A model generated the notes under the pieces. It made no database searches and had not been told where the DNA came from. It saw nothing but the letters and a program-made list of their open reading frames with translations. 64,000 nucleotides of DNA from Caldicellulosiruptor morganii (GTDB lineage: Bacteria > Bacillota > Thermoanaerobacteria > Caldicellulosiruptorales > Caldicellulosiruptoraceae): positions 2,299,501 to 2,363,500 of the forward strand of contig NZ_CP113865.1 of the NCBI RefSeq assembly GCF_026810225.1, given 5' to 3'. Positions 11,405 to 32,943 of this stretch are shown here, piece by piece. The position numbers and the translations under genes are program-made. How positions within the stretch are numbered: the stretch's first letter is position 1; every line of letters begins with the position of its first letter.

Positions 11405-12352
11405 ATGACTAATTTTATTAAAGCACAAAAACAAAAATTTTTAAAGATATTTATGACAATTGAAAAAGTAATAAAAGATTTAGGATTGAAGATAAAAAAC
11501 AACAAAAGAGGAAGACCGAAGAAATTTAAGCTGAGCCATATAATAGCTTGTTTTGTTTATAAAGTCAAAAATAGGATAAACAGCTTTAGGGAATTAGAGT
11601 ACAAGATAAATGAAGATGAAGAATTTAGAAAGGTCATAGGAATAGAAAAGAGCCCCGATCATTCATATTTTTCAAAATGGGCTAAAATGATTGAAGAAGA
11701 ATATATAGAAGCAATAGCAAGAATTTTAGTAAGAGAAATAGATCCCAAGACAAGAGTTTGTGCTATAGATTCTACACCTTTGAGAAGCTCGAGGGGTGAT
11801 AGAGAAGCAGGAGTAGGAAGATGTGTTAGTTTAGGTTTTTACAATGGGTATAAATTACATGTGCTAGCAACAGTTGAAGATGAGGTCATACCGATAGTAT
11901 GGTGGTTGACATGTGCAAATATTCATGATAGTAAAGCGGTAGAACTTTTGTATGAAGCTAAGATATTTGGACCTGATGTAATATTAGCAGATGCAGGTTA
12001 TGATTGTACAAAGTGGTTTGATGTGGCTGATAGACTTGGAATAAAGTTTGTAGCGGGTATAAATAAGAGAAATACTAAGGATTTTAACAATGTCAAAAAT
12101 ATTCTGAGAGCACAAAACATAGAATTTTTAAGAAGTAAAGAAGGACAAAGAGTATATAAGCAAAGGATAAAAATTGAAAGATTATTTGGGAAGCTGAAAG
12201 GAGAATATAATTTAGAACAAGTACGGCTAAGAGGTTTTAGAACATATAAGAGACATGTTGACTGGATAATGGTTACTTATTTGATAGAGCTTTATATTCA
12301 AAAAATTGAAAACTGTAAATTTTCTTTTAAATATGCATGGAATAATTTATAG
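11405..12352 (+). CDS. IS4-type DDE transposase (copy 2)
   Basis: Identical in sequence to the transposase at 5538-6485: DDE catalytic domain with CAIDSTPLRSS, VILADAGYD and the YREK signature YKQRIKIERLFGKLK. The gene reads on the + strand, opposite to the direction of array transcription, so it could be exposed to antisense transcription from the leader. It is intact. Confidence 0.9.
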   Translation: MTNFIKAQKQKFLKIFMTIEKVIKDLGLKIKNNKRGRPKKFKLSHIIACFVYKVKNRINSFRELEYKINEDEEFRKVIGIEKSPDHSYFSKWAKMIEEEYIEAIARILVREIDPKTRVCAIDSTPLRSSRGDREAGVGRCVSLGFYNGYKLHVLATVEDEVIPIVWWLTCANIHDSKAVELLYEAKIFGPDVILADAGYDCTKWFDVADRLGIKFVAGINKRNTKDFNNVKNILRAQNIEFLRSKEGQRVYKQRIKIERLFGKLKGEYNLEQVRLRGFRTYKRHVDWIMVTYLIELYIQKIENCKFSFKYAWNNL

Positions 12353-12434
12353 TCCCATATAGTTACATTAATAGTAGAATTATTTATTCAACAACTTAAG
12401 TTGAGAGAGCTTAAAAATGCAGAAACAGAGTTTG

Positions 12435-15046
12435 GTTTACATCCCTCATAGTTCAGATAAAACTCCCTGTTCCGTAACGACTTATATCTAACGCTACTTC
12501 ATGTTTACATCCCTCATAGTTCAGATAAAACCAGGTAGCTGTATTAGGGAACATAGTACTGACTGAATGGTTTACATCCCTCATAGTTCAGATAAAACAT
12601 AAATGACCTGATAGTAATAATGGTTTATCTGCCTTAGTTTACATCCCTCATAGTTCAGATAAAACGTATTAATTGTATTTAGTTCAATAACGTTTAGTTT
12701 TCGTTTACATCCCTCATAGTTCAGATAAAACGCTTTAACAGGTTTAACAGCGGCCTTAATTTTAACAAGTTTACATCCCTCATAGTTCAGATAAAACTTT
12801 TTACTAATTTTCTGACTATTTCAGGGAGTATTTCTTGTTTACATCCCTCATAGTTCAGATAAAACTGAAGACGTCAACGTTGAAGAAGAAATAATAGAAA
12901 AAAGTTTACATCCCTCATAGTTCAGATAAAACTTTGAACCCTCCTTCACTTGAAATACAAAATGACCAGTTTACATCCCTCATAGTTCAGATAAAACCAT
13001 ATAAGCCCGGCAATAAGTACCAAGTGTCCGTCCAAGTTTACATCCCTCATAGTTCAGATAAAACCAACAAGAAGGACGATAGAGGGTGGCAGCGGGGTGT
13101 AGTTTACATCCCTCATAGTTCAGATAAAACCAAACGCAAGTGAGTTTTTAGCTTGGGCAAAGACACAGTTTACATCCCTCATAGTTCAGATAAAACTTTT
13201 GTTTTAAATAAGCTTTTACAGAAAACTTGATAATGTTTACATCCCTCATAGTTCAGATAAAACTGAAAAATACAAAGAACAATTGTTCAACAATCTTGGG
13301 CGTTTACATCCCTCATAGTTCAGATAAAACATCATTTCCCAGCTTCTACGCAAATTTTCCCTTGCTTCGTTTACATCCCTCATAGTTCAGATAAAACTTT
13401 TTGGTTTTGAACCCTTTTAGTTCTTCAAGTATTGTTTACATCCCTCATAGTTCAGATAAAACATATGGCGACTTAACTTATGCTGATGCGTTTTATTCAG
13501 TTTTCATCCCTCATAGTTCAGATAAAACTTGAAGAGTTAACAATTGAAGAGATTATTACTTTTCTTGTTTACATCCCTCATAGTTCAGATAAAACATTTT
13601 GTATTTACCGAATCTATATTTCTTACCTTCAATGTTTACATCCCTCATAGTTCAGATAAAACAATTGGACATGGTAACAGAATTATTTTCGAAAGTAACG
13701 TTTACATCCCTCATAGTTCAGATAAAACGCAGTGTGTGCAGCTGCGGGTATAGTAGCAGTTACTGGTTTACATCCCTCATAGTTCAGATAAAACTTTTCA
13801 GAGATAGTAAGTGGCACAAAATTATTACAAACGTTTACATCCCTCATAGTTCAGATAAAACCAGGATTCACAAAAGAAGAAATTCTAAAAGGTAAGTATC
13901 GTTTACATCCCTCATAGTTCAGATAAAACTACTGTTCTTTTTTGTTATCCAAATTTGGATTGAAAGTTTACATCCCTCATAGTTCAGATAAAACTTCCTT
14001 GTCGTGCGAAAAACAAAAAACGAACGTTTACATCCCTCATAGTTCAGATAAAACGTCTGAAAATCCCGCTATATACTCTTTGAAACCTCCGTTTACATCC
14101 CTCATAGTTCAGATAAAACTTTGTTGAGTATAAGATAAGCTTGCCCGTCTACAAACTCGTTTACATCCCTCATAGTTCAGATAAAACTGCTTGTAAAAAG
14201 CACTCTTAAAGAAGGATATGATTAGTTTACATCCCTCATAGTTCAGATAAAACGCAGAGTGTAGGCGTGAAATGTGGACAGCAGTGCAGTGTTTACATCC
14301 CTCATAGTTCAGATAAAACGAAGAACGTTTAGAAAAGGGAATAGATGAGGCAATAGTTTACATCCCTCATAGTTCAGATAAAACGTAAAATCATCTTTTG
14401 ATAAAGTTCAAGTTTAAGCGGGTTTACATCCCTCATAGTTCAGATAAAACTCTGCGTCTTTAAGATATTTTCTTGTCGCTTGTATAAGTTTACATCCCTC
14501 ATAGTTCAGATAAAACTCGTGGCAGCAAAACAGGTTTGCAGGCACAAAAAACTGTTTACATCCCTCATAGTTCAGATAAAACTTGCAGCGATTATACCAA
14601 AAACAGTAACTTTGCTAAAGTTTACATCCCTCATAGTTCAGATAAAACGAGTATTTTTCACAGTGTACTATCCAGACCCAATCAGGTTTACATCCCTCAT
14701 AGTTCAGATAAAACGATTACAAAAATTATTCAAATGTGTTAGTTGATATCAGTTTACATCCCTCATAGTTCAGATAAAACTGGCGCATTTTCCCTTTTAA
14801 TTTGCTGCCAGTTAGGATCGTTTACATCCCTCATAGTTCAGATAAAACGCTCAAGGAACGTTTGTGCATTGCCACTTTTCCCGCGTTTACATCCCTCATA
14901 GTTCAGATAAAACTCTTATTGGTTTAAGAGCAACTGAGAGTCCGAACCGAGTTTACATCCCTCATAGTTCAGATAAAACCATAAAACATTGAGTTAAGGC
15001 ATATAACTTGTCTTCTTGTTTACATCCCTCATAGTTCAGATAAAAC
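12435..15046 (-). CRISPR. CRISPR array, block 2 (40 repeats)
   Basis: Continues block 1 with the same 29-bp repeat; 40 repeats by hand count. The repeat at 13500-13528 has TTTTCATCCC instead of TTTACATCCC; all others look perfect. Two spacers recur in block 3 with a different length at one end: 14120-14158 (39 nt) against 18108-18144 (37 nt), and 14451-14487 (37 nt) against 18240-18277 (38 nt). The block ends at the spacer interrupted by the first IS110-family element. Confidence 0.97.
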
Positions 15047-15091
15047 CTAACATCAAGGGGCATAGTTCACGCCCCCTTGTATAATTATTTT

Positions 15092-15549
15092 CGTAAGACA
15101 CATCAAAAAAATTCTAATAAAATAACAACCAAAGTTTCGGTTAACATAAGATTTTGAGTCTCATCCTTAAAATAACATCTCAAATACTACCTCTTTGAGA
15201 GGAAAGCAGCGCAAAGTCTCTTCCTGCTGCTTGTGGCTTCTAATCTTTAGCCACTTTAACGCTGGCCTCTTGCCAGCCATTCTAACTTTGATATAATTCT
15301 TTCTATCTGGGCATGGAATTTACCTGTACGCGCCCCCTGGGAACGGAACTTCTTTCCGTATACCCGTGAAAAAGATTATTATTCCATTCCAGGTAAGTCT
15401 AAACTATTTGGCTGGTTGAGGCCAGCTTAGATCCTAATCAAAGCTGGTTCCTCGCATCACGTGCAAGGTTGTATACTTACCTTTGCTCGGAATGGAAAAC
15501 TCATGCCCTAATTCAATTTCAAAATCACTTGCAGGGAGGTTTAATTGCT
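15092..15549 (+). ncRNA. Candidate bridge RNA region of IS110 element A
   Basis: The non-coding left end of IS110 elements is known to encode a bridge (seek) RNA whose loops pair with target and donor DNA. Here roughly 15180-15470 is much more GC-rich than the surroundings and full of possible stems, for example GAACGGAACTTCTTTCCG (15340-15357), and GGCTGGTTGAGGCCAGC (15410-15426) followed by AAGCTGG. No open frame with a ribosome binding site fits the region. Exact RNA ends and guide loops cannot be fixed by eye. Confidence 0.55.
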
Positions 15550-16842
15550 ATGAATCTAAAACCTATTGCCGGGATTGATGTAGCCAAGTATTTCAGCGAA
15601 ATGGTGATTATATCTCCTACAAATGAAATAATTGCCCGCTTGACTATCCGTCACAATAATCCCTCTGATTTTGATAGGGCTATTGAAATCCTTAAAAAAG
15701 TTGAAGAGGATTTCGCAGCACGCCCTATCATCGTCATGGAAGCCACAGGGCATTACCACAAAATCCTCTCCCGCTTCTTTACTTCTAATGGCTGGGATGT
15801 TTCAATTATCAATCCCATCCAATCTAATTCTATCAAAAATGCGGGAGTTAGAAAAGTAAAAAATGATAAAACCGATGCCCTGTGGATTGCATTAACTTTT
15901 AGACTTACTGACTCTACTGTAGTACAACCTTCATCTGAAATCCTCGACTGCTTGAAAAACCTATGCCGCCAGTATTACAACCTCAGTGATGAACTAACCT
16001 CTTACAAATACAGACTTACTTCTGTCGTCGATCAAATTATGCTCAATTTCAAAGAGGTCTTCCCTGACATTTGTTCTAAAACATCCTTGGCTATACTTGA
16101 AAACTACCCAACTCCAACCGATATCTTAGGCGCTGACAGCGAAAAACTTATTTCCATCATTCAGCTAACCTCTAAAAAAAGCTATCAATGGGCCAAAGAA
16201 AAATATGAATTACTTGTCGCAAAAGCTAAACAGTTTCAACCTTTTTCTATATCAGACTTAGCAACTGTTACTATGCTTAAAGTCTATATTAACATGGTCC
16301 TGAATTTACAGCAGAATATCGACAAAATTTTTGAAGCCATAAATCAACTTGTTCAGCAATCTTCGCAATCTCAGCCTTCACTCATGGAAAATATTAACCT
16401 CCTTCAATCTATCCCCGGCATAGGTTTTCTATCCGCTGCAACTATCCTTGCTGAAATAGGTGATTTCGAAAAATTTTCAAAACCCAACAAGCTTGTTGCT
16501 TTCTTTGGTGTAGATCCTTCCGTAAATCAATCGGGGCAATTTGTTGGCACAAAAAATAAAATGTCTAAACGTGGTTCTAAAATCTTGCGAAGAATCTTAT
16601 TTACAATTGCTCTTGCCAATATCAGAACAAAAAGAAATTCTAAACCTTGTAATCCTGTATTATTCGAATACTATCAGAAAAAGTGCCAACAAAAGCCCAA
16701 AAAAGTTGCATTAGGTGCTGTTATGAGAAAAATTATTTGTATTATCTTTGCTGTTATGCGCGATAAAAAACCTTTTGAACTTAGAACTCCAGAAGAACAT
16801 ATTCAAAAATACTTTAATAAAACTGCAGTTTGTAGTGCATAA
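15550..16842 (+). CDS. IS110-family DEDD transposase (recombinase) A
   Basis: A 430-residue recombinase of the IS110 family, with an N-terminal RuvC-like DEDD domain and a C-terminal Tnp domain with a catalytic Ser. Seen: PIAGIDVAKYFSEMVI (first Asp), VMEATGHYH (Glu), VKNDKTDALWIA (Asp pair), then LLQSIPGIGFLSAATILAEIG (helix-hairpin-helix-like segment) and FFGVDPSVNQSGQF with the likely Ser. The start at ATG 15550 has GGGAGG upstream; a longer frame from 15469 has no such site. In known members the protein acts with a bridge RNA from the element's non-coding end. Intact. Confidence 0.88.
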   Translation: MNLKPIAGIDVAKYFSEMVIISPTNEIIARLTIRHNNPSDFDRAIEILKKVEEDFAARPIIVMEATGHYHKILSRFFTSNGWDVSIINPIQSNSIKNAGVRKVKNDKTDALWIALTFRLTDSTVVQPSSEILDCLKNLCRQYYNLSDELTSYKYRLTSVVDQIMLNFKEVFPDICSKTSLAILENYPTPTDILGADSEKLISIIQLTSKKSYQWAKEKYELLVAKAKQFQPFSISDLATVTMLKVYINMVLNLQQNIDKIFEAINQLVQQSSQSQPSLMENINLLQSIPGIGFLSAATILAEIGDFEKFSKPNKLVAFFGVDPSVNQSGQFVGTKNKMSKRGSKILRRILFTIALANIRTKRNSKPCNPVLFEYYQKKCQQKPKKVALGAVMRKIICIIFAVMRDKKPFELRTPEEHIQKYFNKTAVCSA

Positions 16843-17019
16843 ACAATTGTTCTGTTTACGAAACATTAGTTAACAATAACACTACTCAGCCTCCATATGT
16901 TATGTCAACTTCTAATGGATGGCTTACCTTTTTGCGCCCTCTTTAAAGAATCTTATACCATAAAATGGTGTCAAAATTTTTTAAAAAAACTCTTGACTTT
17001 AATTAGCTGGTCTTGATGT

Positions 17020-19166
17020 GTTTACATCCCTCATAGTTCAGATAAAACCATTTTTTTACCGATAACAACTATATTTACATTTTTGTTTACATCCCTCATA
17101 GTTCGGATAAAACTAGCGAAAGCAGCAAAAACAGCAAAAGGACAATTAGCGTTTACATCCCTCATAGTTCAGATAAAACTTCAAGAAAGCAGGTATTCTA
17201 ATTCTTCCGTTCTCTGTTTACATCCCTCATAGTTCAGATAAAACTTAACCTCACCTGTTCTTTTTGTTTTTAGGTCTGTCTTGTTTACATCCCTCATAGT
17301 TCAGATAAAACGGACTTGCAGAAGCTGTAAAGACATCTGTGTATTTGCGGTTTACATCCCTCATAGTTCAGATAAAACTTTAAAACTGTTAGTTTTAAGC
17401 CTATAGTGTTAGGAGTTTACATCCCTCATAGTTCAGATAAAACATTAATTTTTTCAACGCAGCATCTTCTGTTCTGATGTGGTTTACATCCCTCATAGTT
17501 CAGATAAAACCAGATATAGTTCTGATTTACAGAGAGAAGAAAGCATAGGTTTACATCCCTCATAGTTCAGATAAAACCTTAATAGTATGTTTGTTAATTC
17601 ATTAGCTGTAGCAATGTTTACATCCCTCATAGTTCAGATAAAACTGTTTTTTGCAAACATTTATTGCTTTATAGTATCGTTTACATCCCTCATAGTTCAG
17701 ATAAAACCTTAATAGTATGTTTGTTAATTCATTAGCTGTAGCAATGTTTACATCCCTCATAGTTCAGATAAAACTAACCTCTTCTAACATTTAACCTCAC
17801 CTATTTTCTTTTGTTTACATCCCTCATAGTTCAGATAAAACCTCAATCGTTGTTAAATAAGCACTCAATCGTTGTTAGTTTACATCCCTCATAGTTCAGA
17901 TAAAACCCTCCCATTTTTTGTTTTGCCCTCACGGGCAATCCCCAAGTTTACATCCCTCATAGTTCAGATAAAACAAGTCATGTAAAGGCTTGGTCCAGCA
18001 GGGTACAGTATGTTTACATCCCTCATAGTTCAGATAAAACTGGGGATTGCCAAGGGCAAAGCCAACCGGCAAAGCCCAGTTTACATCCCTCATAGTTCAG
18101 ATAAAACTGTTGAGTATAAGATAAGCTTGCCCGTCTACAAACTCGTTTACATCCCTCATAGTTCAGATAAAACTAGATTTGCGTAATAGCATTGAAGTAT
18201 TAATACAAAGGTTTACATCCCTCATAGTTCAGATAAAACTTCTGCGTCTTTAAGATATTTTCTTGTCGCTTGTATAAGTTTACATCCCTCATAGTTCAGA
18301 TAAAACTCAGCGACAAACTTATCATGGTCACCATTAAGGGCTATGGTTTACATCCCTCATAGTTCAGATAAAACCAGGTATTAACCCAGAAAATTGCACA
18401 ATTAAGTACAAGTTTACATCCCTCATAGTTCAGATAAAACTCCTTTAAAAGTTTTAATTGATTAGCATCCACAAGTTGGTTTACATCCCTCATAGTTCAG
18501 ATAAAACCAGCACTTAGAAGGCTAATGATGGCACCGTTAGCGAGTTTACATCCCTCATAGTTCAGATAAAACCTCAAATTCAAGTGCTGTGAGATATTTA
18601 ACAACTGCTTGTTTACATCCCTCATAGTTCAGATAAAACAACTTTATCAATATCAACAAGCTGAACGTCAAAGCAGTTTACATCCCTCATAGTTCAGATA
18701 AAACCGCAGAAAAGTGGCTATATTTGGGGAATAGACGAAAGTTTACATCCCTCATAGTTCAGATAAAACGACCCTGCTTTATATTCTGATGAAAACAGAT
18801 TAATTGTTTACATCCCTCATAGTTCAGATAAAACTCAATTACTTGACGGGAGAAATAGAATTTAACGAAGATGTTTACATCCCTCATAGTTCAGATAAAA
18901 CCTCAAAAGAAAGGGTGGATATGGATAATCGAAGAAAGTTTACATCCCTCATAGTTCAGATAAAACAAAGGCAAAAGCTGTGGGAGTTTATGAAAAATCT
19001 AGACGTTTACATCCCTCATAGTTCAGATAAAACCATAATTATTTATTGCAGGCCTGAAAAGGAAATAATTGTTTACATCCCTCATAGTTCAGATAAAACA
19101 AACAAAAACACACCAATCTCTGTTTGTAAAATGAGATGTTTACATCCCTCATAGTTCAGATAAAAC
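17020..19166 (-). CRISPR. CRISPR array, block 3 (33 repeats)
   Basis: The same repeat; 33 by hand count. The repeat at 17085-17113 has TTCGG for TTCAG. The spacer at 17578-17615 recurs exactly at 17708-17745, separated by one other spacer. Two spacers match block 2 spacers except for length. The spacer at 17842-17877 contains CTCAATCGTTGTTA twice. The block ends at the spacer split by the second IS110-family element. Confidence 0.97.
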
Positions 19167-19326
19167 ATTACAAGAGACAAACGGTAAAATGTCAAGAGGG
19201 TTTTTAAGAAAAATTTTTTAGATTATTAGGCGAAAAAAGGCAATAAAATACCTGGCCGCACAGCATGGTAAAATTTAACTGGCAGCTTGTTCAGAGAAAA
19301 TTATTAAACTAAAAATTTGAGATTAA

Positions 19327-20571
19327 CTAAGTATTGTAAACATCACCTCTTTCTTGATATATTTGACCTTTGCTGAGCATTGCAAAGATCAGAGGAATTA
19401 AGCGTCTTGCGGTGAGGACGAGGGCACGTTTATGCTGGTGTTTGGTAACCTCTGAGAACTTCTTGTTGTAGAAAGCTTTGTAGCGTACTGTGTGCACCCT
19501 TACACAGTTAGCAGCTTCAACAAGATAGTATCTCAGGTATTGGTTACCACACTTAGCTAATGAGACATCTTGGGCATTGAAATTGCCTGACTGATATTGA
19601 GTCCAAACCAGGCCAGAGTATTTAGCTAAAGCAGCTTCATTTTTGAAGCGCTTGATATCACCGATTTCAGCGATGATGCCGGCTGCGAGAACGTCACCTA
19701 TGCCAGGAACGGTTGTTAATGTTTGAGAGAAAGCTTTAAGAAGTTTTGAGATTTCTTTGTCAAGTTTTTTGAGTTGTTCTTGCATAAATCTAATGTTTTC
19801 AAGTGTCATAGACAAAGCTAAATCATTTGCCTCAGCCAACAGAGGATGTAATCTAAAGGAGCGATTAGCAGCAGTTTTAAGTATTTCAGCAATTTTATTA
19901 ACATCTGAGAGTCTATTGTTGCCGTTATCGGATACGAATTTAATTAAGTCTTCTAAAGGCATAGAAGCGATATCATCAGGTGTAAAGTTTTCGATGATAG
20001 CGCAAGATGCCTTACCGAAGATATCTGAAAATGGGCACTCTTGAGAATAAGTAGAGAATTTAAGGTATATGAGATTGAGAGCTCTGTTTTTTTCGCGAGT
20101 TAGATTATGAACAAGGTGGTAGCGCATTCTGGTAAGGCGTTGCAGTGCAGCAAATTTAAAATCTGGCAAAGGTGTTGGATTTAGTTTACTGAACCTGACA
20201 CATTCAGCAATAACGATAGCGTCAATATTATCTGTCTTAGGCAAGAAAGTGTAGATTTTTTTAAATCCTTTGACGATGCTTGGGTTAAGTACGTAGAAGG
20301 TTGGTTTGTAAGGTAGTAGTTCAGAAGAAGAAGCAAGATGAAGGTGAAGATGCCATGTGTAATGTGAAGTTGCTTCCATGCCAAACTTAATACAGGATAG
20401 ATTATACTGGCTGAGACAATCAATAACTCTTTTGATTAATTCGTTAGCGCCTTCTTGATTGTTAGGCAAGGAAAAAGGTTTTTTAATCAAGTGATTACCG
20501 GCATCATCGATGAAGAAGATAGAATTTGACTGACTACTGATATCAATGCCCACGATTAATGTATTAGGCAA
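19327..20571 (-). CDS. IS110-family DEDD transposase (recombinase) B
   Basis: A 414-residue IS110-family recombinase. Motifs: LIVGIDISSQSNSIFFID (Asp), FGMEATSHYTWHL (Glu), LPKTDNIDAIVIAE (Asp pair), TTVPGIGDVLAAGIIAEIGDI (HhH-like), and GLVWTQYQSGNFNAQD with the probable catalytic Ser. The start is TTG 20571, with AGGAGG 6-8 nt upstream on the - strand. It shares little sequence with transposase A beyond these motifs, so the two arrived separately. Intact. Confidence 0.88.
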   Translation of the reverse strand: MPNTLIVGIDISSQSNSIFFIDDAGNHLIKKPFSLPNNQEGANELIKRVIDCLSQYNLSCIKFGMEATSHYTWHLHLHLASSSELLPYKPTFYVLNPSIVKGFKKIYTFLPKTDNIDAIVIAECVRFSKLNPTPLPDFKFAALQRLTRMRYHLVHNLTREKNRALNLIYLKFSTYSQECPFSDIFGKASCAIIENFTPDDIASMPLEDLIKFVSDNGNNRLSDVNKIAEILKTAANRSFRLHPLLAEANDLALSMTLENIRFMQEQLKKLDKEISKLLKAFSQTLTTVPGIGDVLAAGIIAEIGDIKRFKNEAALAKYSGLVWTQYQSGNFNAQDVSLAKCGNQYLRYYLVEAANCVRVHTVRYKAFYNKKFSEVTKHQHKRALVLTARRLIPLIFAMLSKGQIYQERGDVYNT

Positions 20572-20589
20572 TTTAAAAGCCTCCTTTCT

Positions 20590-20900
20590 AAAGTGTGGTG
20601 TTAGGAAAAGAGTTAAGCCCTTTATCCCTGGGGATTACATGTAATGCAGCCTCGCCGATATTAGAGCTACGGAGCAGTTTACAGGGTGCACACATCTGAT
20701 ATGCTCAAATCAGATGTGGTAAACTGACCATGCACAGCAAACGAGTAAACATTACTCATGTAATCCTTTGGGGTTCAGTCTCTCACAAGCTGTGGCGTGC
20801 AGTTATCAAAGCACGTCCAGCAGGGGGTGACAAAAAATATCCAACAAACTAAAATCAGGCTTAACTTTTTTCTGATTTTAGTTTACCAAAGATAAAGGGC
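20590..20900 (-). ncRNA. Candidate bridge RNA region of IS110 element B
   Basis: The non-coding left end between the transposase start and the -10 box at 21057-21062. It has several good stems on the - strand: CACATCTGAT with ATCAGATGTG (near 20690-20720), GGATTACATG with CATGTAATCC (20631-20765), and a perfect 13-bp arm pair at 20846-20858 and 20872-20884. There is no plausible open frame. By analogy with characterised IS110 elements this should encode the guide RNA; the precise ends are unknown. Confidence 0.55.
20846..20884. repeat. Perfect 13-bp inverted repeat
   Basis: AAACTAAAATCAG and CTGATTTTAGTTT around a 13-nt loop, within the non-coding left end of IS110 element B. A further pair, TCAATTGGTAC (20992-21002) and GTACCAATTGA (21015-21025), lies between it and the -10 box. 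Confidence 0.8.
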
Positions 20901-21092
20901 AAATTTAAGCTGTAGCAGTCAATTTTAATATTCAATTTTTAAGAAGTGAGTGTTTTAAGAATGGGAATTTATTTTAATGAATTTCCAGTAATCAATTGGT
21001 ACTAATAATTTAATGTACCAATTGAGATATGAATTTTTTATTGATTTGATAATCATATTATACGAGGAGGGAGAAGAAGTGAAACCCTATGA

Positions 21093-23379
21093 GTTTACAT
21101 CCCTCATAGTTCAGATAAAACCAAATCTGTCGTCTTTCAAGAGCAATCCGTAAAACCAGTTTACATCCCTCATAGTTCAGATAAAACAATAGTTAGTTCC
21201 GTTTTAATTATTAAATTCACCTTTAGTTTACATCCCTCATAGTTCAGATAAAACTGCCCCCAAGCCTTTATTAATCTTGGATGTGAATGATCGGTTTACA
21301 TCCCTCATAGTTCAGATAAAACCGAAGTTACTTGGAGGCTTCTTGATGAAATATTAAAAGTTTACATCCCTCATAGTTCAGATAAAACCCAACACTACAG
21401 AGCAGAGTAAACAATATCGAAACGGTTTACATCCCTCATAGTTCAGATAAAACGAGGTTTTAAAGAATTTATAGCGGGCTTTTCAGATGGGTTTACATCC
21501 CTCATAGTTCAGATAAAACACACCACATTGTAACTGGATTATTCCTTTTGATTATCCGTTTACATCCCTCATAGTTCAGATAAAACTATATGGACGATCC
21601 GGTACTGGAAAAACCACTTTTGCAGTTTACATCCCTCATAGTTCAGATAAAACTCGCTGGAGAAGCAAGGTGGCTTCCGGAGAAAAAAGCTGTTTACATC
21701 CCTCATAGTTCAGATAAAACCTTTTTGTGGAATTTAAACGTGGGAATTTTCTTTAAAAGTTTACATCCCTCATAGTTCAGATAAAACTGCAAGAATTAAA
21801 ACAAACAAAATATTTCATTACAAGTTTACATCCCTCATAGTTCAGATAAAACCCTTTGTTGAATTTGAAGACAAGCTGTTGTTTACAGAGTTTACATCCC
21901 TCATAGTTCAGATAAAACACCAGAGAATGAGAAAAAAGCCTTGCTGGATGGTTCATGGGTTTACATCCCTCATAGTTCAGATAAAACTTGCGTGTTTTAA
22001 AAATTATAGAGCAAAAAACGAAATGGTTTACATCCCTCATAGTTCAGATAAAACCAACAGCCGTGAGCATTTGTAATATTTACAAGTGCTCGGTTTACAT
22101 CCCTCATAGTTCAGATAAAACAAATTGAATAACGAAAATTACCAAAACTTGATAGTAAGGTTTACATCCCTCATAGTTCAGATAAAACAACATTCAAACC
22201 AGACTATAGGCTCAAAATAGACTAGTTTACATCCCTCATAGTTCAGATAAAACAAGTTCTTATTCAAGATAATGATAATGAATATGTTTAGTTTACATCC
22301 CTCATAGTTCAGATAAAACAAAACATTACCACGTCCAGTTATTGCTATTACTTATAGTTTACATCCCTCATAGTTCAGATAAAACTTGTTAGACTGGGTA
22401 AAGCAGGTAAGACAGCTTGATTTGTTTACATCCCTCATAGTTCAGATAAAACTCAGAGTATATAACTTAACTCAAAAAGTTAAAGCATACGTTTACATCC
22501 CTCATAGTTCAGATAAAACTGTTGTTGTATAAGTTGCAGGACTGTTGGCACTACGTTTACATCCCTCATAGTTCAGATAAAACGGCGGCTGATGAGTAGT
22601 CTTGCTGCGTTTTACATATAAAGTTTACATCCCTCATAGTTCAGATAAAACTGAGCGTGCCGAAAAAAACTGAAAAGCCACCCTGAAGTTTACATCCCTC
22701 ATAGTTCAGATAAAACTTCTTTAATTATTTCTACTATTTCATCAAGTCTTTTGTTTACATCCCTCATAGTTCAGATAAAACTTGGCAGCTCAGTTATAAA
22801 GTGCAGTCTTGCTCCTTGTTTACATCCCTCATAGTTCAGATAAAACAATGGGAACGGCAAGTTTATGAAGACATAGAGTTTATTGTTTACATCCCTCATA
22901 GTTCAGATAAAACGTACGTCTTCTTGCACAATGTAAGTAAGCGTGTAATCAGTTTACATCCCTCATAGTTCAGATAAAACAGACATGATGCAACTAACAA
23001 ATGCTGGAATCAAAGCTGTTTACATCCCTCATAGTTCAGATAAAACCTGTTGTAAAAGCTTAATATTTTCTAAATCCTTTATTGGGTTTACATCCCTCAT
23101 AGTTCAGATAAAACGTATCTTCTGCCCCGTTGGTATGTATGTGAGCTCCATGTTTACATCCCTCATAGTTCAGATAAAACCCTCTTTGCGTCGGTTAACA
23201 CGTTTTTAAAAACATCGTTTACATCCCTCATAGTTCAGATAAAACTGTAAAAATCTGCGTTTTAAATCCTTAATGTTATTTTTGTTTACATCCCTCATAG
23301 TTCAGATAAAACGGGTCAAGCCTCATTCGAATTCTGTTAACCTTTGCAAGGTTTACATCCCTCATAGTTCAGATAAAAC
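21093..23379 (-). CRISPR. CRISPR array, block 4 (35 repeats, leader-proximal)
   Basis: Thirty-five perfect or near-perfect 29-bp repeats, the last at 23351-23379 next to the leader, so the newest spacers are at the high-coordinate end. The predicted crRNA 5' handle, the last 8 nt of the repeat on the - strand, is ATGTAAAC. The spacer at 21587-21624 reads on the + strand as YGRSGTGKTTFA, a Walker A motif, showing a protein-coding target. No repeated spacers were noticed within this block. Confidence 0.97.
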
Positions 23380-23604: not shown

Positions 23605-23874
23605 TTACAGTATTATGGAATCATAGTTTTTCTCCTGTCCAAGTACTTTTTTGTTGCACACAATTTTATATTCCATTTCATAAAAATACACTGAATCCTC
23701 GTCCTTCTCTATCACAGAAAAAAGTTCGCGTTTGCATTTTTCAAGCTTTCCGTATGTTATTTCACCTTCAAATACAGAGTTCTGTACCCATGTGAAATAC
23801 TTTTTCAAAATCTTTCGAACCTTGTTTACACGCTTTTCATTCACATCATATGTCACGATTACAAAAATTGTCAA
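23605..23874 (-). CDS. cas2: CRISPR adaptation protein Cas2
   Basis: Cas2 dimers bridge two Cas1 dimers in the spacer-integration complex. The protein is 89 residues with a ferredoxin-like fold: TIFVIVTYDVNEKRVNKVRKILKKYFTWVQNSVFEGEIT, shown here in the key parts VIVTYDVNEKR (conserved Asp) and WVQNSVFEGEIT. The start is TTG 23874, with AAAGGGTGA upstream. It is the last cas gene and borders the leader. A gap of 160 bp (from the cas1 stop at 24055) is unusually long for this operon. Confidence 0.93.
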   Translation of the reverse strand: MTIFVIVTYDVNEKRVNKVRKILKKYFTWVQNSVFEGEITYGKLEKCKRELFSVIEKDEDSVYFYEMEYKIVCNKKVLGQEKNYDSIIL

Positions 23875-24054: not shown

Positions 24055-25035
24055 TTACCACCATGCCTTCAGAGGTGAGTAGACACTATCACCTATAAAG
24101 TGCTTTATTAACTTGTAGCACTCAAGCCTTATATAACCTTTGTAAGATACATTTCTGTTAAGCTGCCTGTGGCGAACTGTTGTTTCAAGTTTGTTCTGAA
24201 GCTCTTTTATAAAAATCTTTCTTCCTTCTTGATTCAAATAGCAATAATTCAAGTCCTCATCAAAGTGTTCAAGTGTAATCTGACGATTGTTTAGAAGTTT
24301 GAAAATTACACTGTCCACAATAAGTGGCTTAAAAATCTCCGAAATGTCAAGGCTCAGAGAAAATCTCTTTTCGCCCGGTTCATGCAAAAAACTTATGCTC
24401 GGGTCAAGCTGTGTGTGATATATTTCTGTCAAAATGGTGCTGTATATTAGGCTATTCCCGAAAGAAATCAACGCATTTATGGGGTTTGTTGGTGGTCTTT
24501 TTTCACGTCTTTCCATGTAAAAATCTTCTGGCAAAAATTGATTGAAAGATGAATAGTAAATGTTCCTCACCCTTCCCTCAAGCCCCATAAGCTCTGGTAT
24601 GCTCGAAATATTAAACCTGCCATTTTCCCATTCGTCTTCAATAGCATTCAAAAAAGCCTCAGCTTCTTTTCTCTCTCTCAAGTTTCTCATCATATGATAA
24701 ACTGCTGATTCTACAAAGCAGTATGCTAAAAACATTCTTTTATCCCTGTCAAGATAGTGTAGTGCCTGCCGAACAACCACATCACCCGAGACATTTTTCT
24801 TTCGTGGCATAAAGCTTCCTGCATAAAAGCCATAGTAGTTGTAAAAGTGAAGAACTATACCATACTGGGAGATATAGTTCAATGCCCTGGTATTCAAATC
24901 AACCTCACCAAATATATGAATTTGTTCAATGTTTTCAATGTCAACAGCCCTCTTTTCGGTTTCTGTCTCAAAGTACAGGGTGTTTTCTTTTCTTCGAAGT
25001 CTTCCATTCGAATTTATATAAAGCGTCTTTTGCAT
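24055..25035 (-). CDS. cas1: CRISPR adaptation integrase Cas1 (type I-B)
   Basis: Cas1 is the metal-dependent integrase that inserts new spacers at the leader. Length is 326 residues from ATG 25035, which lies 5 nt after the cas4 stop and has GGGGGT upstream. The metal ligands expected in the family are visible: Glu in PELMGLEGRVRNIYY, His in SFLHEPGEKR and Asp in SLSLDISEIFKPLIVD. The N-terminal beta domain (TLYINSNGRLRRKENTLYFE) and the helical catalytic domain are both complete. Confidence 0.93.
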   Translation of the reverse strand: MQKTLYINSNGRLRRKENTLYFETETEKRAVDIENIEQIHIFGEVDLNTRALNYISQYGIVLHFYNYYGFYAGSFMPRKKNVSGDVVVRQALHYLDRDKRMFLAYCFVESAVYHMMRNLRERKEAEAFLNAIEDEWENGRFNISSIPELMGLEGRVRNIYYSSFNQFLPEDFYMERREKRPPTNPINALISFGNSLIYSTILTEIYHTQLDPSISFLHEPGEKRFSLSLDISEIFKPLIVDSVIFKLLNNRQITLEHFDEDLNYCYLNQEGRKIFIKELQNKLETTVRHRQLNRNVSYKGYIRLECYKLIKHFIGDSVYSPLKAWW

Positions 25036-25040
25036 AGCAA

Positions 25041-25553
25041 CTACCCCCAGCAAAACTCAAAATATGCACAGCTTTTGCAAATTCTCTGTTTTGTTGCAGG
25101 CGGTGGGACAGGTTTTTTTGTGATTTCTTCTATCTCCTTTAAAGCCTGCTTTACTTTTTCCTCATACTCAGGTGTAAGATCCAGCACCTCTTTTCTTCTT
25201 TCTTTCGGGTAATTGATTATCCCCTGTTTTTGTATCCCTTTCTGTTTCAAATAGTAAAGATAGTACATAACCTGCATAATGTCTGCCTCTTTCATTTTGC
25301 TGCTGTGTTTTACCTCTCTCACTGCACCATCCGATAGAATGTCAATCCTTATCAGATTGTCTATCAAAACCTCTTTTGTCTCTTCTTTGGGATAAGAATA
25401 TTCATGCAAGATTTTGCCAAGCAGAACTCTGTCAGACCAATTTTCAAATGTTATATTTTTGCTAAAAAGCCAGAGCTTGCGTTTGCAAACGTAAAGATAG
25501 TTTATTTTTATACCCTGGAATTTGAGTTCAGAATATTCTTGTATATATTCCAT
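25041..25553 (-). CDS. cas4: CRISPR adaptation nuclease Cas4
   Basis: Cas4 is a RecB-like nuclease with a 4Fe-4S cluster that trims prespacers and selects those with a correct PAM. The protein is 170 residues. Seen: one Cys near the N-terminus (YLYVCKRKLW, residue 23), the nuclease core IRIDILSDGAVREVKHSS (Asp, Glu and Lys), then QVMYYLYYLK, and the C-terminal Cys triad CKSCAYFEFC. The gene lies between cas3 and cas1, as in most type I-B operons. The start at ATG 25553 is accepted; upstream is the cas3 stop at 25572. Confidence 0.92.
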   Translation of the reverse strand: MEYIQEYSELKFQGIKINYLYVCKRKLWLFSKNITFENWSDRVLLGKILHEYSYPKEETKEVLIDNLIRIDILSDGAVREVKHSSKMKEADIMQVMYYLYYLKQKGIQKQGIINYPKERRKEVLDLTPEYEEKVKQALKEIEEITKKPVPPPATKQRICKSCAYFEFCWG

Positions 25554-25571: not shown

Positions 25572-28316
25572 TTACACTATATAATTTTCAATGTCATATC
25601 TTTCATTTTTCAATAGTCCTAATTCCTCATTGTATTTATGTGAAGAAACATAGATATCTGATAACCATCGCTGTAATCTGATTTCCCAATTATTGTTATT
25701 GAATTTCAAGTTTAATCTTTTAATTACAGGAGTTAATCCTCTTTCAAATGGTTGATTTACTACATATTTTGCCAGAACATCTTTTTTAAAACGTGTAAAT
25801 AATAACTTCTTTTCTGATGGTGTCGCTTCTTCTTTACTAATAAAATTTAAAATGTCCGCTTCAAACTTTTCTAAATATTCCTCTGGAACAACTTGAAGAC
25901 TAAAGATATTTCTAAAGATCTTCTCAGCCTCTGATTTTTTCTCAGACATCCAGCCTGCTTCAAGAATATCAAGTGTATCATAATAACTCCTTAAATAGGT
26001 ACCATTTTGTTTTAATGTACTATAAAATAAAGAAACCAATACATATTTCTCATACTCTGATAACTCAATTTCGGTTTTGTCTATCTTAGATAACCAATCA
26101 TTATTTTCAACTATTGTATCATATACATTACTTTCCTGATTCTTTTTATTCTTCTTTTTACCGCTCTTTTGAGATATGTTTTCCAATAAATCTAAAAATT
26201 CTTGTTGAAAAATCTTTTCTTCTATTTTTTTATCATAATCAATATCGTCTTCTTTGAACTGAGAAACTTCATTTAAGAGAGTGTCCAAATTATTTTTTTG
26301 ACTTTCCTTCCATAACCATGCAAGAGAAAGTTTTACAAGTTCCTTAGGATAAACTAAATCTCCACCTGATTGTAACTTATCATCAAAAATGAATACATGA
26401 ACATTTGGTTCACCACTTGGTTCCTTTTCAAATGCTTTAAACATTTCAGACAACTCATGCTCATCATTATTGCTCTTATTAATTACTTTTCCGTTCCTAT
26501 AAAAATACCTTCTCAAAACTCTTCCCATTCTCTGAACCAATGCATCAAGAGGGCATATTTCTGTAAACAAAACATCTGCATCAATATCAAGTGAAGCCTC
26601 AACCACCTGTGTAGAAACAAGAATTTTACCGACATTTTCATGTACAGATTTTGGATTGTAAAATGATTTAATATATTCCCTTTCTTTTATCTCTTTATCA
26701 TTTAAAGTAAAACGAGAATGAAGCAAAAAGATGTTATTTCGAATCTCTCCAGAAGCTTTTTCTTTTAGCTTTTTATAAACTTCTTGAGCAAAAGCCACAG
26801 TATTCAAAATAACAAGTACTCTTTTACCTCTTTTGGCTTGTTCAAGTATTTCATCAATTTTCTCCTCTGGTAATCTGAAATCTGCCGTAGAATCTGTTTT
26901 GCTTTTTATTAGTTCAAGTCTTAACTTGTGTTTGTAAATTTTCTCTAAATGCCTTTTTTCTTTTTTATAAATATTTACTTCTTCTACTTGATCATTAAAA
27001 GAAGGAATCAATTCTCTTATTCTGTGTTCTATAAATTTGGGCATTGTAGCAGTCATAAGTAAAAATTTTCCTCCAATTTTATACAACATTTCAATAAACT
27101 TCGTTATTATGGCACATGCTTTTGGATCATACGCCTGTATTTCATCAATTACAAGTCGGGAATAAGAAAGAGTAGCAAATAACTTTTCAAAGCCTGGAGG
27201 TCTTAGAGCATAAGGGAAAAACTGGTCTCCTGTTGAAATTATTGCAGGATACGAAAGTTGTTTTGCAAGTTCGTAAATTTTCATTACATCAGCTTCATCA
27301 GAAGCTTTATTTAACAAATACAAATCAATATCTGAATGCAAAACTCCAGTTTTATCATCGCCAAATATTCCTTTTGCTCTTTCATAAGTATTATTGACTG
27401 CTGATCGAATAGGAAGAGTGTAGAAAAATTTTTCACCATTTGACCACAAAAACGCAAATTCAGTTTTCCCATAACCAGTGGGTGCAATTAATATAATATT
27501 TTTGTCCAATTTATTATTCAATGCTACAAATTGCCAGGCACTTTCCCCTACTTTGGTAAGTATACTGCTATCTATCGCATTTTTATTCATAGGGTCAATT
27601 TCCACCTTGTCTAATTCTTCTTCTTTCCCTTCTTCTTCACACCACGAAGCATAATGATCACATCTTTGTAGAAAACCTGCAACTAAAATCCATTCTTTGT
27701 TAACTTCTCTTCTCAAAGGCTCATAATCAAATTTGTATGGTGGTATTGCAAGGTCTAATAAAATCCTTCCATTTATTATACTATTAAGCCATTTTCGGTT
27801 GAGAGTTATTAAGTCTTTGTATTCACCATGATTAGAAATTTTTTCATATTCATTGTCAAGATTGTTCTGCAAATGTTCTCCCCACTTATCAATTATCAAT
27901 TTACATAGTTTTTTGAGCATCTCATTTTCTTTTGAAATAAAGTCATCAAACCTCTCTCTCCAATGATGATATGCAACAGCTGAAATGACAAAATTCAAAT
28001 AATCCTCACCATTAAGCTTTTCTTTTAATTTGTTTATATCAATCCAAAAAATAGAAAACAGAGAATGAGGAACTTCATAACATATATCCCATGGTTGATA
28101 CATTTTATTTTTGAGAACTTTAATCTGAAAAGAGGGCAACACTTTTCCAAGGTCATGTAAATATATTGCAATTTTTGTCGCATCAATTAATGACTTATTT
28201 TTGATTTTTATCTCTATATTTTTAAATACTTCTAAAACATCAGAGACATGCTTTGATAAAGTTATTGTCTGCTTGTTTATATCATCATAACTTGATTTTG
28301 CCCAAATTTCACTCAT
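25572..28316 (-). CDS. cas3: Type I effector nuclease-helicase Cas3
   Basis: Cas3 is recruited by Cascade to an R-loop, nicks the displaced strand and degrades DNA processively. The 914-residue protein has an N-terminal HD nuclease (His in SKHVSDV, HD at residues 54-55 in IYLHDLGKVL, then YHHWRERF) and an SF2 helicase: Walker A APTGYGKTEF, DEIQAY in place of DExH, LMTATMP (motif III), STQVVEASLDID (motif V) and VQRMGRVLRR (motif VI). The ATG overlaps the cas5 stop by 8 bp (ATGAGTGA), implying translational coupling. Intact. Confidence 0.94.
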   Translation of the reverse strand: MSEIWAKSSYDDINKQTITLSKHVSDVLEVFKNIEIKIKNKSLIDATKIAIYLHDLGKVLPSFQIKVLKNKMYQPWDICYEVPHSLFSIFWIDINKLKEKLNGEDYLNFVISAVAYHHWRERFDDFISKENEMLKKLCKLIIDKWGEHLQNNLDNEYEKISNHGEYKDLITLNRKWLNSIINGRILLDLAIPPYKFDYEPLRREVNKEWILVAGFLQRCDHYASWCEEEGKEEELDKVEIDPMNKNAIDSSILTKVGESAWQFVALNNKLDKNIILIAPTGYGKTEFAFLWSNGEKFFYTLPIRSAVNNTYERAKGIFGDDKTGVLHSDIDLYLLNKASDEADVMKIYELAKQLSYPAIISTGDQFFPYALRPPGFEKLFATLSYSRLVIDEIQAYDPKACAIITKFIEMLYKIGGKFLLMTATMPKFIEHRIRELIPSFNDQVEEVNIYKKEKRHLEKIYKHKLRLELIKSKTDSTADFRLPEEKIDEILEQAKRGKRVLVILNTVAFAQEVYKKLKEKASGEIRNNIFLLHSRFTLNDKEIKEREYIKSFYNPKSVHENVGKILVSTQVVEASLDIDADVLFTEICPLDALVQRMGRVLRRYFYRNGKVINKSNNDEHELSEMFKAFEKEPSGEPNVHVFIFDDKLQSGGDLVYPKELVKLSLAWLWKESQKNNLDTLLNEVSQFKEDDIDYDKKIEEKIFQQEFLDLLENISQKSGKKKNKKNQESNVYDTIVENNDWLSKIDKTEIELSEYEKYVLVSLFYSTLKQNGTYLRSYYDTLDILEAGWMSEKKSEAEKIFRNIFSLQVVPEEYLEKFEADILNFISKEEATPSEKKLLFTRFKKDVLAKYVVNQPFERGLTPVIKRLNLKFNNNNWEIRLQRWLSDIYVSSHKYNEELGLLKNERYDIENYIV

Positions 28317-29130
28317 TTTTATCCCCCTTCAGGTCAGCAAAAAATACCGGGATTTTTTCTTCATGGTCAAAATAAGCAAATATGTCTCCCATATTCCCAT
28401 CATTAAGTTTTGATTTCATATAATAAAAATTTCTTGATCCATTTATTATCCTGTAAAAGGTGGGTAGACTATAAACTAATCCACTTACTTTTTTAAATTC
28501 TTCTCCAAATCCTGTCCCAAAAATTCTTTCAGGAATCCAAAAAAATTGCCTATAATTACCGTTTATTTCTTCGACGCTTAGTTCCACTTCCTTTAGGTCT
28601 TCTATTACTATCCAATCCTCGGCTCTTCCCAAATGAAGAATTGATGATTTTTTTTCCATATTTTCAAAACTCCATTTTATCTCATTCAGGAATGAATTAT
28701 CATGATGATATAAATAAACAAAAATGCGAACATCATTCAAAATATCAATTGAACACGGTGACTGGCCTCCAATATGCTCAATATGTCCCGCTACGTTTCT
28801 ATTTGCTACTGTACCAAATCTTTTTATATGGTATTCTTTGTTTAAATTTCTAAGCCACGTATACTCTATGCTTTTAGATTTAAAGTTTCCACAAACCCCT
28901 ATCTTAATCATTTTATAATTGCAGTAAGCACACCCGCAATTTTCTTTTGTACATGGCTCTTCCTGCCCTGGTAAATTCTTTATACCAAGAACATTTGCTA
29001 CAAGTCCCATAACTGTTGAATATGGGGGAAGCGGATAAGTATGTCGCCTTTGGTAACTAAAGGGTATTCTATAGTGTGCCTGTGGCTGATATATTTTTAT
29101 TTTCAACGCTTTAATTTTTTCATAACTCAT
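28309..29130 (-). CDS. cas5: Cascade subunit Cas5 (type I-B, Cas5t-like)
   Basis: Cas5 binds the crRNA 5' handle at the foot of Cascade. The N-terminal RAMP motif IKIYQPQAHYRIPFSYQRRHTYPLPPYSTVMGLVANVLG (key parts: PFSYQRRHTYPLPPYST and GLVANVLG) is diagnostic of the Cst/Cas5t group. A Cys-rich insert, CTKENCGCAYC, follows at about residues 60-70 and looks like a small zinc site. The length of 273 is somewhat above typical Cas5 because of this insert. GAGGTAGG lies upstream of ATG 29130. The 3' end overlaps cas3. Confidence 0.88.
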   Translation of the reverse strand: MSYEKIKALKIKIYQPQAHYRIPFSYQRRHTYPLPPYSTVMGLVANVLGIKNLPGQEEPCTKENCGCAYCNYKMIKIGVCGNFKSKSIEYTWLRNLNKEYHIKRFGTVANRNVAGHIEHIGGQSPCSIDILNDVRIFVYLYHHDNSFLNEIKWSFENMEKKSSILHLGRAEDWIVIEDLKEVELSVEEINGNYRQFFWIPERIFGTGFGEEFKKVSGLVYSLPTFYRIINGSRNFYYMKSKLNDGNMGDIFAYFDHEEKIPVFFADLKGDKNE

Positions 29131-29187: not shown

Positions 29188-30291
<1,104 letters not shown>

Positions 30292-30326: not shown

Positions 30327-30839
30327 TCAACCCAGTAGTCCACTCATAAAAGAATAAACTAAAATTTTAAAGTTTTCTATCGAGTATTTTGGATTAAAGG
30401 CATTTACAAGATCATGCTTTAATTCTTGCTGTGCATTCACAAACTCTCTTAAAAGTACATAAAAAACTTCTTCTCTTTTCCCAAGTCTTGTTAACTCGAG
30501 AATCCTAAAGGCTATACCTCTTGGAACTTTTTTATCCTCATCATAAAATCTCTTATAAAGCTCGGAGTTTTTTAATGATTCTCCATATCTTTTCACCCTA
30601 TCACATAGCTCACTGATATTTTGAAGAGAAATCTCATAAAACAATGCCCAAAGTTTAACCTTATCTTCATCCTTTGCATTTTTTGCTGCAAACTCCAGTA
30701 TTTTTTCGAGCTCAAAACCAAGTTTTTTGTAATTGTTAATTGCTTTTTCGAATACGTCAATTTTAATCTGATTTTCCTTTATTGCTTTTTCTAAGCTTTC
30801 TTTTATTTCATCAAAATTGAAATTGAAACTTTCTCTCAT
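30327..30839 (-). CDS. Small helical cas gene, candidate Cascade small subunit (Cas11-like)
   Basis: A 170-residue, almost entirely helical, charged protein (FNFDEIKESLEKAIKENQ..., ending NFKILVYSFMSGLLG). I do not recognise a named family from sequence alone. Its start codon overlaps the cas8b1 stop (ATGA) and GGAGG lies in the end of cas8b1, so it is translationally coupled to the large subunit. Type I-B Cascades are known to contain a small Cas11 subunit made from an internal start within cas8b; here the neighbouring Cas8b1 is relatively short (423 aa) and this helical protein could be the same module as a separate gene. Alternatively it is the frame-separated C-terminus of Cas8b1. Confidence 0.65.
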   Translation of the reverse strand: MRESFNFNFDEIKESLEKAIKENQIKIDVFEKAINNYKKLGFELEKILEFAAKNAKDEDKVKLWALFYEISLQNISELCDRVKRYGESLKNSELYKRFYDEDKKVPRGIAFRILELTRLGKREEVFYVLLREFVNAQQELKHDLVNAFNPKYSIENFKILVYSFMSGLLG

Positions 30840-32107
30840 ACAAAAACCTCCCTCTTAATTTTCTCTTCAATCAATGCATAGAGTTTAAAAAGTTTGTAAG
30901 ATAAATTGGTCAAATTATCAATATTTTTTTGTAGCTTAATATTTTCCTTTACAAACTCTTTATCATTTTGTTTAAGCTTCTCTACTGAATAGTTTAAAAG
31001 AGAAATTTTTAATATTCTTTCACCAAGTTCCATTATTTTTGAAAAATCATTATTCAATACAAAACTTAATATACTGAGTTCCCCAATATCATTTAATAAT
31101 GTTGCAATCTCGCGATTCGAGAGAAGAACAGTCGTTTCATACAGAATGGAAAAGAAATCTACTTTTTTGTTATATAAAGTAACAATTTCTATATTCATCA
31201 TTGTCCACTTTCCAAGTTGAATATTGAGTTTTAAAGCCATTTCTATAAGTGACATACCCAGAAGTTCTTTTGTTCTGGATATTCTTTCTCTTTTATAAAT
31301 GGTTTGTACATACTCATTTAAATGCCACATTACCTCAAACGAGGGAGCATTTACAAACATTTTTAAACCATCAGCTAAATCTGTCATACAAACATGGTAA
31401 TGAAGAATTAGATAGGCACAGAGCGGGCAAATATATAAACTATCAGCATTATTACAGAATGAATTAGGAAATTCTCCTAATGAAGGTGCCAACAAAGCAT
31501 TATGCCGCATGTCAAACTTTTTAATACCATTCAAAAACTTCCCTAAAGTTTCTTTCATTTTTTTATAATTTACTTCTATTTGTTTATCTTTCATACTAAG
31601 AATTTTGAAAATTTTTGAATATGGTATTTCTTTGGAAGAATTTTTAACATTGTTTGTATTATTAATCTGCCTTTTATTGGCTTTTTCTATATTATTTTTT
31701 TCTCTTTTATGTCTATTGATTACACATCTTATCATCTTTCTCTGCATATCTTTAATATCTGTATCAGAAAATGCAAATTTTCTACCACAAAAATCGCACG
31801 ACATAGATTCATCAACTTCTTTTATATTGGCTAAGTTCTTAACAAAAAGCCTAAAAACTTCTTTCCAATCTTCACCATACTGCAAATAGTTTATGTGAAA
31901 AGATGATTTACCTATAATTGACGCAACCTTTTTTTCATAATATCTTTCCTCAATTTTTAATTGTTTAAAAATATTCTGGTCTATAACAACACTGCCATCT
32001 TCTTTAAAACTAAAATGGTTTGATAAATTTTCAATTTCTTTTACAGAAATTAAAAAACCAATCACTGAAGCATTATACAACCAATTACCAGGATACAATG
32101 TTAGCAT
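30836..32107 (-). CDS. cas8b: Cascade large subunit Cas8b1 (Cst1, CXXC-CXXC type)
   Basis: The large subunit recognises the PAM and positions target DNA. The protein belongs to the Cst1 group by its opening TLYPGNWLYNASVIGFL and two CXXC pairs, SCDFCGRKF near residue 105 and LYICPLCAYL near residue 232, expected to bind zinc. The length is 423 residues; Cst1 proteins I recall are often longer, and the next gene (30327-30839) may supply the rest. AGGAGG lies upstream of ATG 32107, 50 bp after the cas6 stop. Confidence 0.85.
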   Translation of the reverse strand: MLTLYPGNWLYNASVIGFLISVKEIENLSNHFSFKEDGSVVIDQNIFKQLKIEERYYEKKVASIIGKSSFHINYLQYGEDWKEVFRLFVKNLANIKEVDESMSCDFCGRKFAFSDTDIKDMQRKMIRCVINRHKREKNNIEKANKRQINNTNNVKNSSKEIPYSKIFKILSMKDKQIEVNYKKMKETLGKFLNGIKKFDMRHNALLAPSLGEFPNSFCNNADSLYICPLCAYLILHYHVCMTDLADGLKMFVNAPSFEVMWHLNEYVQTIYKRERISRTKELLGMSLIEMALKLNIQLGKWTMMNIEIVTLYNKKVDFFSILYETTVLLSNREIATLLNDIGELSILSFVLNNDFSKIMELGERILKISLLNYSVEKLKQNDKEFVKENIKLQKNIDNLTNLSYKLFKLYALIEEKIKREVFV

Positions 32108-32157: not shown

Positions 32158-32943
32158 TTACCTCGCCACCTCAATAAAGCCAAAGCCCTGAGCGCGCCTG
32201 AATCCAAGGCCATTCTGGTAAATCTCTTTCAAATCCTCGGGATGTCCTGATAGTTCAAATATCCCCGAAAAACCTGTAAGATACATAATCTCTTTGCCGG
32301 TATTTTTCTCAAACTCTGAAATCTTATGCTTTACAACAGTCTTTTTTATATTTTTTGGCTTAAAACTGATTCTTTTGTGAAGTCCGCGGTTTTGTCCCCT
32401 CAGAATTCTTATATTTCTGATCTCAAAATCAATCACGTCATTCAAAATCTCCTCAAAACCCTCCTCATATGGCAAAACCGGTATTTTGTCATCTCCTTCT
32501 TTTTTTTCAATTAAAACCGGTGAAAATGTTTTGAAAGTCATGGTGGAATCAAACTGATCAGGCTCTTTGACAAGGTAGGATCTTTTTAGTTTGACCACGC
32601 AATGGTCTGCCAGTTTGTAAGGATACAGGTTCTTGCTTATAAGCCCATTGTAAATATTTACAAAAAACTCATAATCGGAAGTTGAAAGATTCAAAACTAT
32701 ATCGCCTCTGAATAAAACCTTATCATCCAAAAAATTCATATTTGGCAGGTTCACTGCATATACAAAAGGCTTTTGCCACTTGTTTTTCTTATCTTCCCAC
32801 CAGTATAACTTCCGAAAATACTCGCTGTTGTAATCTGACAGTGCCTTTTTCAAAAAAGCCATAAAAACTGTTCTATAATAAACCGGCAACTCCCTGTACT
32901 CTTCTTGACTGTTTTGCACTTCAAATATAAACTTTGCTCTCAT
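32158..32943 (-). CDS. cas6: CRISPR RNA endoribonuclease Cas6
   Basis: Cas6 cuts the array transcript within each repeat, leaving an 8-nt 5' handle. The protein is 261 residues with the family's C-terminal glycine-rich loop, GLGFRRAQGFGFIEVAR, and an N-terminal RAMP domain that starts MRAKFIFEVQ. A catalytic His is plausible in the first domain but I cannot single it out by eye. It is the first gene of the operon, with GGGGAG upstream of ATG 32943. As the only Cas6 in view it probably serves both the I-B and the Cmr effector. Confidence 0.9.
   Translation of the reverse strand: MRAKFIFEVQNSQEEYRELPVYYRTVFMAFLKKALSDYNSEYFRKLYWWEDKKNKWQKPFVYAVNLPNMNFLDDKVLFRGDIVLNLSTSDYEFFVNIYNGLISKNLYPYKLADHCVVKLKRSYLVKEPDQFDSTMTFKTFSPVLIEKKEGDDKIPVLPYEEGFEEILNDVIDFEIRNIRILRGQNRGLHKRISFKPKNIKKTVVKHKISEFEKNTGKEIMYLTGFSGIFELSGHPEDLKEIYQNGLGFRRAQGFGFIEVAR

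Follow-up and report, generated by a model that had tools for sequence, protein, structure and literature searches.

A separate cas11 gene in a type I-B CRISPR-Cas operon of Caldicellulosiruptor morganii and its likely origin by fission of cas8b

The small subunit Cas11 of a type I-B CRISPR-Cas system in Caldicellulosiruptor morganii has a gene of its own, and we consider it likely that a single fission of a fused cas8b, at or near an internal start and without domain duplication, gave the two genes that are now conserved. Papers as late as 2026 describe type I-B as having no standalone cas11 (PMC13199841, PMC11899642). Its Cas11 is made from an internal start in cas8b (PMC11899642; PMC11096372), and such a start is thought likely for the I-B system of Thermotoga maritima (PMC13199841). 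Comparison of fused and split sister lineages locates the break and favours a fission that involved no duplication. For heterologous use, where the point matters (PMC13199841), the locus also provides a naturally occurring type I-B system whose Cas11 does not have to be engineered into a separate gene.

A type I-B operon with a separate cas11

The window (the whole stretch of 64,000 nucleotides that was analysed, contig NZ_CP113865.1) carries on its minus strand the genes cas6, cas8b, cas11, cas7b, cas5b and cas3, followed by cas4, cas1b, cas2 and a CRISPR array:

32158..32943, minus strand: cas6 (TIGR01877, 2.7e-22)
30836..32107, minus strand: cas8b, large subunit, 423 aa (PADLOC PDLC01204, 1.6e-110)
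30836..30856, minus strand: split junction, with Shine-Dalgarno GGGAGG, 7-nt spacer and ATGA overlap
30327..30839, minus strand: cas11b, separate small subunit, 170 aa, ATG start (PADLOC PDLC01190, 1e-63)
30540..30788, minus strand: Cas11 helical insert, ~80 aa, residues 18-100 (gap in all fused homologues)
30327..30533, minus strand: Cas11 core, residues ~103-170 (homologue of the last ~75 aa of fused Cas8b)
29188..30288, minus strand: cas7b, Cst2/DevR (TIGR02585, 2.2e-51)
28309..29130, minus strand: cas5b (TIGR01895, 4.5e-37)
25572..28316, minus strand: cas3, HD and helicase (TIGR01587, 4.6e-75; TIGR01596, 2.1e-23)
25041..25553, minus strand: cas4 (TIGR00372, 4.6e-23)
24055..25053, minus strand: cas1b (TIGR03641, 1.1e-137)
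23605..23874, minus strand: cas2, 89 aa (assigned by eye and by position beside cas1)
8715..23379, no strand assigned: CRISPR array of 144 exact 29-nt repeats, with insertion sequences within it

The type I-B operon looks intact, with Cas11 encoded by its own gene. Cas7, Cas5 and Cas1 scored above the cut-offs of I-B families (TIGR02585, TIGR01895, TIGR03641), and Cas8b was assigned by PDLC01204. Assignment to type I-A found no support: the families matched were those of I-B, and the operon has a single Cas3 with HD and helicase parts, not separate cas3' and cas3''. Inspection by eye placed three transposase-like ORFs inside the array (15469-16842, 19327-20571 and 11399-12352), two of them IS110-like and one IS5-like, and a 405-aa TnpB-like ORF with a zinc-finger motif near the operon (37488-38705). 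The GC content is 35%; nearby lie several insertion sequences and what looks by eye like a GH10-type xylanase.

The 170-aa protein matched the PADLOC Cas11b family PDLC01190 over its full length (positions 4-144 of 144) at E=1e-63, and PDLC01193, another Cas11b model, at 5.5e-60; searches of Pfam and NCBIfam gave no family match. PADLOC describes Cas11b as the "small subunit of some of I-B systems". Because Cas11b is already modelled there, a separate I-B Cas11 is of a known kind. Both models treat the small subunit as a protein in its own right, but neither says how it originated or describes the junction or the insert. The first-pass annotation had called the protein a Cas11-like small subunit, an identity supported by the PADLOC match and by homology to the C-terminal domain of fused Cas8b. 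Among the control genomes PDLC01193 also matched in Methanocaldococcus jannaschii, and archaeal relatives may exist.

Orthologues of cas11 were found in six other genomes, with 63-74% identity and all at the same place, which establishes the separate gene in the I-B operon as real. Five of the genomes with the two-gene form are congeneric (L028-L032) and one belongs to another class (L063); across the two-gene loci the cas8b partner encodes 363-423 aa. Pairwise dN/dS of cas11 was 0.05-0.18 over all tabulated pairs, dS being saturated in several. In the three pairs for which the halves were computed separately, dN/dS was 0.06-0.20 for residues 1-100 and 0.11-0.18 for the remainder. cas11 evolves under purifying selection. 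Scans of genome contigs and viral sequences with Cas11 yielded no relatives, and tblastn of plasmids with Cas11 and Cas8b yielded no matches. In one of the congeners (L032:9797-11229), the split system has a cas7 that is broken into frames of 222 and 231 aa; this system has no cas6, cas4 or cas1 alongside and is perhaps served or replaced by the second system.

Fused relatives and the position of the split

The large subunit had been annotated as a Cas8b1 of 423 aa. Its length and its identity as Cas8b (PDLC01204) stand; the narrower name needs a caveat, as the window protein gave no match to NCBIfam TIGR01908, Cas8b1/Cst1 (cut-off 19.4 bits), whereas its L063 orthologue reached that family at 27.3 bits. 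Eleven genomes elsewhere in the phylum (L043, L064 and L066-L074, the close fused set) carried the same cas7-cas5-cas3 lineage with a single fused Cas8b of 474-542 aa. The fused proteins gave a profile of 482 positions, of which split Cas8b spanned 2-380 and split Cas11 roughly 401-480; for the window alone, Cas8b covered 5-378 and the Cas11 match began at 363. Profile matches for the Cas11 core occurred in all 11 close fused Cas8b proteins (E 1e-9 to 1e-12), and hhalign scored the core at 98.5% (E 3e-15) with this lineage and at 97.2% with that of Cas8b1/Cst1. Split Cas8b stops near position 380 of the 482 and has no tethered Cas11-like C-terminal domain; nor was a copy of Cas11 seen in it (hhalign <1%).

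The start of cas11 is preceded by aaattaagaGGGAGGtttttgtATG, and the Shine-Dalgarno duplex was calculated at -12.6 kcal/mol, as expected of a gene annotated with a ribosome binding site of its own. The GGGAGG motif sits within the 3' end of cas8b, 7 nt ahead of the cas11 start, and the two genes (30327-30839 and 30836-32107) overlap by 4 nt, the cas8b stop and the cas11 start sharing ATGA. A strong Shine-Dalgarno was present at 7/7 split cas11 starts (-11.5 to -12.9 kcal/mol). The exact junction varies: at four of the seven loci, cas8b and cas11 are separated by 1-3 nt or share 8 nt instead of 4.

In every one of the 11 fused genes, the best Shine-Dalgarno-linked in-frame ATG or GTG lay 88-126 aa from the end (-9.7 to -13.3 kcal/mol), L064 being exceptional in that its best internal start was 126 aa from the end, against about 95. 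The split cas8b genes had no strong internal start of this kind (-5.6 or weaker). The internal site of L043 reads AAGAAAGGAGGCGTTTTT-GTG, coding KKKGGVF-V; the window junction reads AAGAGGGAGGTTTTTGT-ATGA, with cas8b ending KREVFV-stop. These two sites place the split at the position of the internal start, in another frame. The internal Shine-Dalgarno was tested by synonymous-codon shuffling, 300 shuffles per gene. For seven of the 11 fused genes the observed value was reached in 0-18 of 300 shuffles, a better site than the encoded protein demands; for the other four, with L069 and L070 as near-copies, 37, 63, 63 and 116 shuffles were as good, and the excess was not clear. The signal was mixed in the more distant fused lineage. 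The internal start is probably used in the fused relatives. These relatives share with the window the cas7/cas5/cas3 lineage, the homologous C-terminal domain and a candidate start at the split position; they differ in having one gene, whose candidate internal product of 88-126 aa is without the ~80-aa insert.

A cas8b of the fused lineage in a draft genome (L065:4424-5877) was considered as a second split and rejected, being broken mid-gene by a frameshift away from the internal start. Another genome, L042, also carries a broken Cas8b.

The helical insert and predicted structure

Alignment with the fused forms showed that standalone Cas11 has ~80 extra residues following its first helix. When 398 sampled genomes were searched with a profile of this insert, strong matches occurred only in split systems. 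Three weak matches were rejected as true relatives, because the neighbourhoods in which they sit contain no cas operon; one of them is a sigma-factor-like ORF. Profile comparison gave no visible sign that the insert comes from the end of Cas8b. An AlphaFold2 model of Cas11 predicted nine helices with a mean pLDDT of 86 and lower confidence over the first forty residues, so that the annotation of the protein as all-helical holds in the model. Foldseek searches with the AlphaFold2 models of Cas11 and Cas8b gave no significant match to a solved structure, Cas11 included, and sequence and profile searches of solved structures found no Cas11 or Cas8.

In a solved I-B Cascade, the belly, which holds the non-target strand, is built from the Cas8b C-terminal domain and three Cas11b subunits (PMC11096372). 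By analogy with this structure, one would expect here a Cas8b that lacks the domain and a belly built of Cas11 throughout. The 170-aa protein is probably the belly subunit of Cascade, free Cas11 alone would make up the belly, and the insert may replace contacts that were lost on untethering.

Direction of change and alternative origins

In the Cas7 and Cas3 trees, none of which (the enlarged Cas3 tree included) contained an I-A sequence, the split forms made up one clade with 100/100 support, sister to the close fused forms. A Cas3 tree with E. coli I-E, I-C, Thermus and other sequences kept the split and fused lineage together (96/98). The enlarged Cas3 tree, whose outgroup branches are long and whose root is not settled independently, set the split and close fused lineage apart from the fused Cas8b1/Cst1 lineage. 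The fused state is presumed ancestral: one fission is the shortest account, and two fusions from a split ancestor are a possible course at higher cost.

That costlier course, with the split form ancestral, fused Cas8b arising by fusion of cas8b with cas11 and the internal start a relic of the cas11 start, seems unlikely to us. It predicts the matching Shine-Dalgarno at the junction equally well, and types I-A and I-E do have a separate gene (PMC11899642); however, fused forms occur both in the sister lineage and in the Cas8b1/Cst1 lineage, so that this course takes two fusions where a single fission would do, and the published I-B systems consulted are fused (PMC11899642, PMC11096372, PMC13199841). 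The internally started small subunit of Haloferax volcanii and Synechocystis PCC 6714 corresponds, as here, to the Cas8b C-terminal domain, but its cas11 is nested in cas8b and not a gene of its own; the same is predicted for T. maritima (PMC11899642, PMC11096372, PMC13199841).

A 2023 review called the Cas11 lineage in type I unknown and suggested duplication, in general terms for type I (PMC10212523). Applied to the present locus, duplication in tandem of the stretch of cas8b that encodes Cas11, with domain loss from Cas8b afterwards, would give an identical outcome provided that the first copy later disappeared, and the combined length of the split proteins does exceed that of the fused one. 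The excess is the insert, however, and split Cas8b bears no trace of a Cas11 copy. Duplication of Cas8b helices into the N-terminal half of Cas11 was likewise rejected, that half and the Cas8b C-terminus being dissimilar (hhalign <2%). We regard duplication as very improbable.

It is just as improbable that the 170-aa protein is an accessory protein that has retained a piece of the Cas8b domain rather than the small subunit. The uniqueness of the insert and the failure of Foldseek to find a solved Cas11 would suit such a role, but the core is homologous to the Cas8b C-terminal domain, the gene has the operon position of a small subunit, and the operon holds no other small-subunit candidate. 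Finally, a frameshifted or decaying cas8b, with the two ORFs as pieces of a broken gene, can be dismissed almost entirely: such breaks occur (the L065 frameshift and the broken Cas8b of L042), but the same split is found in seven genomes from two genera of different classes, the strong Shine-Dalgarno is conserved in 7/7, and both parts are under purifying selection.

The fission account starts from an ancestor with a single Cas8b bearing a C-terminal Cas11-like domain, in which an in-frame internal start would also have made free Cas11. The reading frame would then have been broken at the internal start or a few codons from it, with retention of the Shine-Dalgarno, so that cas8b now ends at ATGA and cas11 is read in a different frame. 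The large subunit would thereby have lost its tethered Cas11-like domain, leaving all Cas11 copies free, and cas11 may be translated by re-initiation coupled to cas8b through the ATGA overlap. Cas11 would have gained the ~80-aa helical insert after its first helix. We lean, by a modest degree, towards the complete form of this account, in which one break of the frame at the internal start, with no duplication, turned a nested gene into a standalone one, the insert substitutes for the tether, and the belly consists entirely of free Cas11.

The conserved gene pair supports the first-pass view that one ancestral Cas8b was naturally split, as opposed to a frameshift in a single strain. The further suggestion that the arrangement is halfway to type I-A is not supported by the Cas3 and Cas7 trees: a split clade that is sister to fused I-B forms points to an independent split inside I-B and not to a path to I-A. 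Types I-A (Csa5) and I-E (Cse2) likewise have their own small-subunit gene adjoining the large subunit, but they are different subtypes, and what they share with the window is this gene organisation. The split appears to have arisen independently within I-B, with a resemblance to I-A and I-E that is organisational only. Cas8 of type I-E keeps its own C-terminal bundle.

Sister strains were searched for an intact Cas8b1 of ~590 aa, and every congener that shares this effector cassette proved to have cas8b and cas11 as two genes. The long Cas8b proteins seen in other congeners (~530-660 aa) belong to a different I-B effector lineage, Cas8b1/Cst1 (TIGR01908). Within the genus, two I-B effector cassettes have been exchanged between a conserved cas6 and cas4-cas1 (window 24055-32943, L028-L040), and two genomes (G001 and G008) hold both effector lineages.
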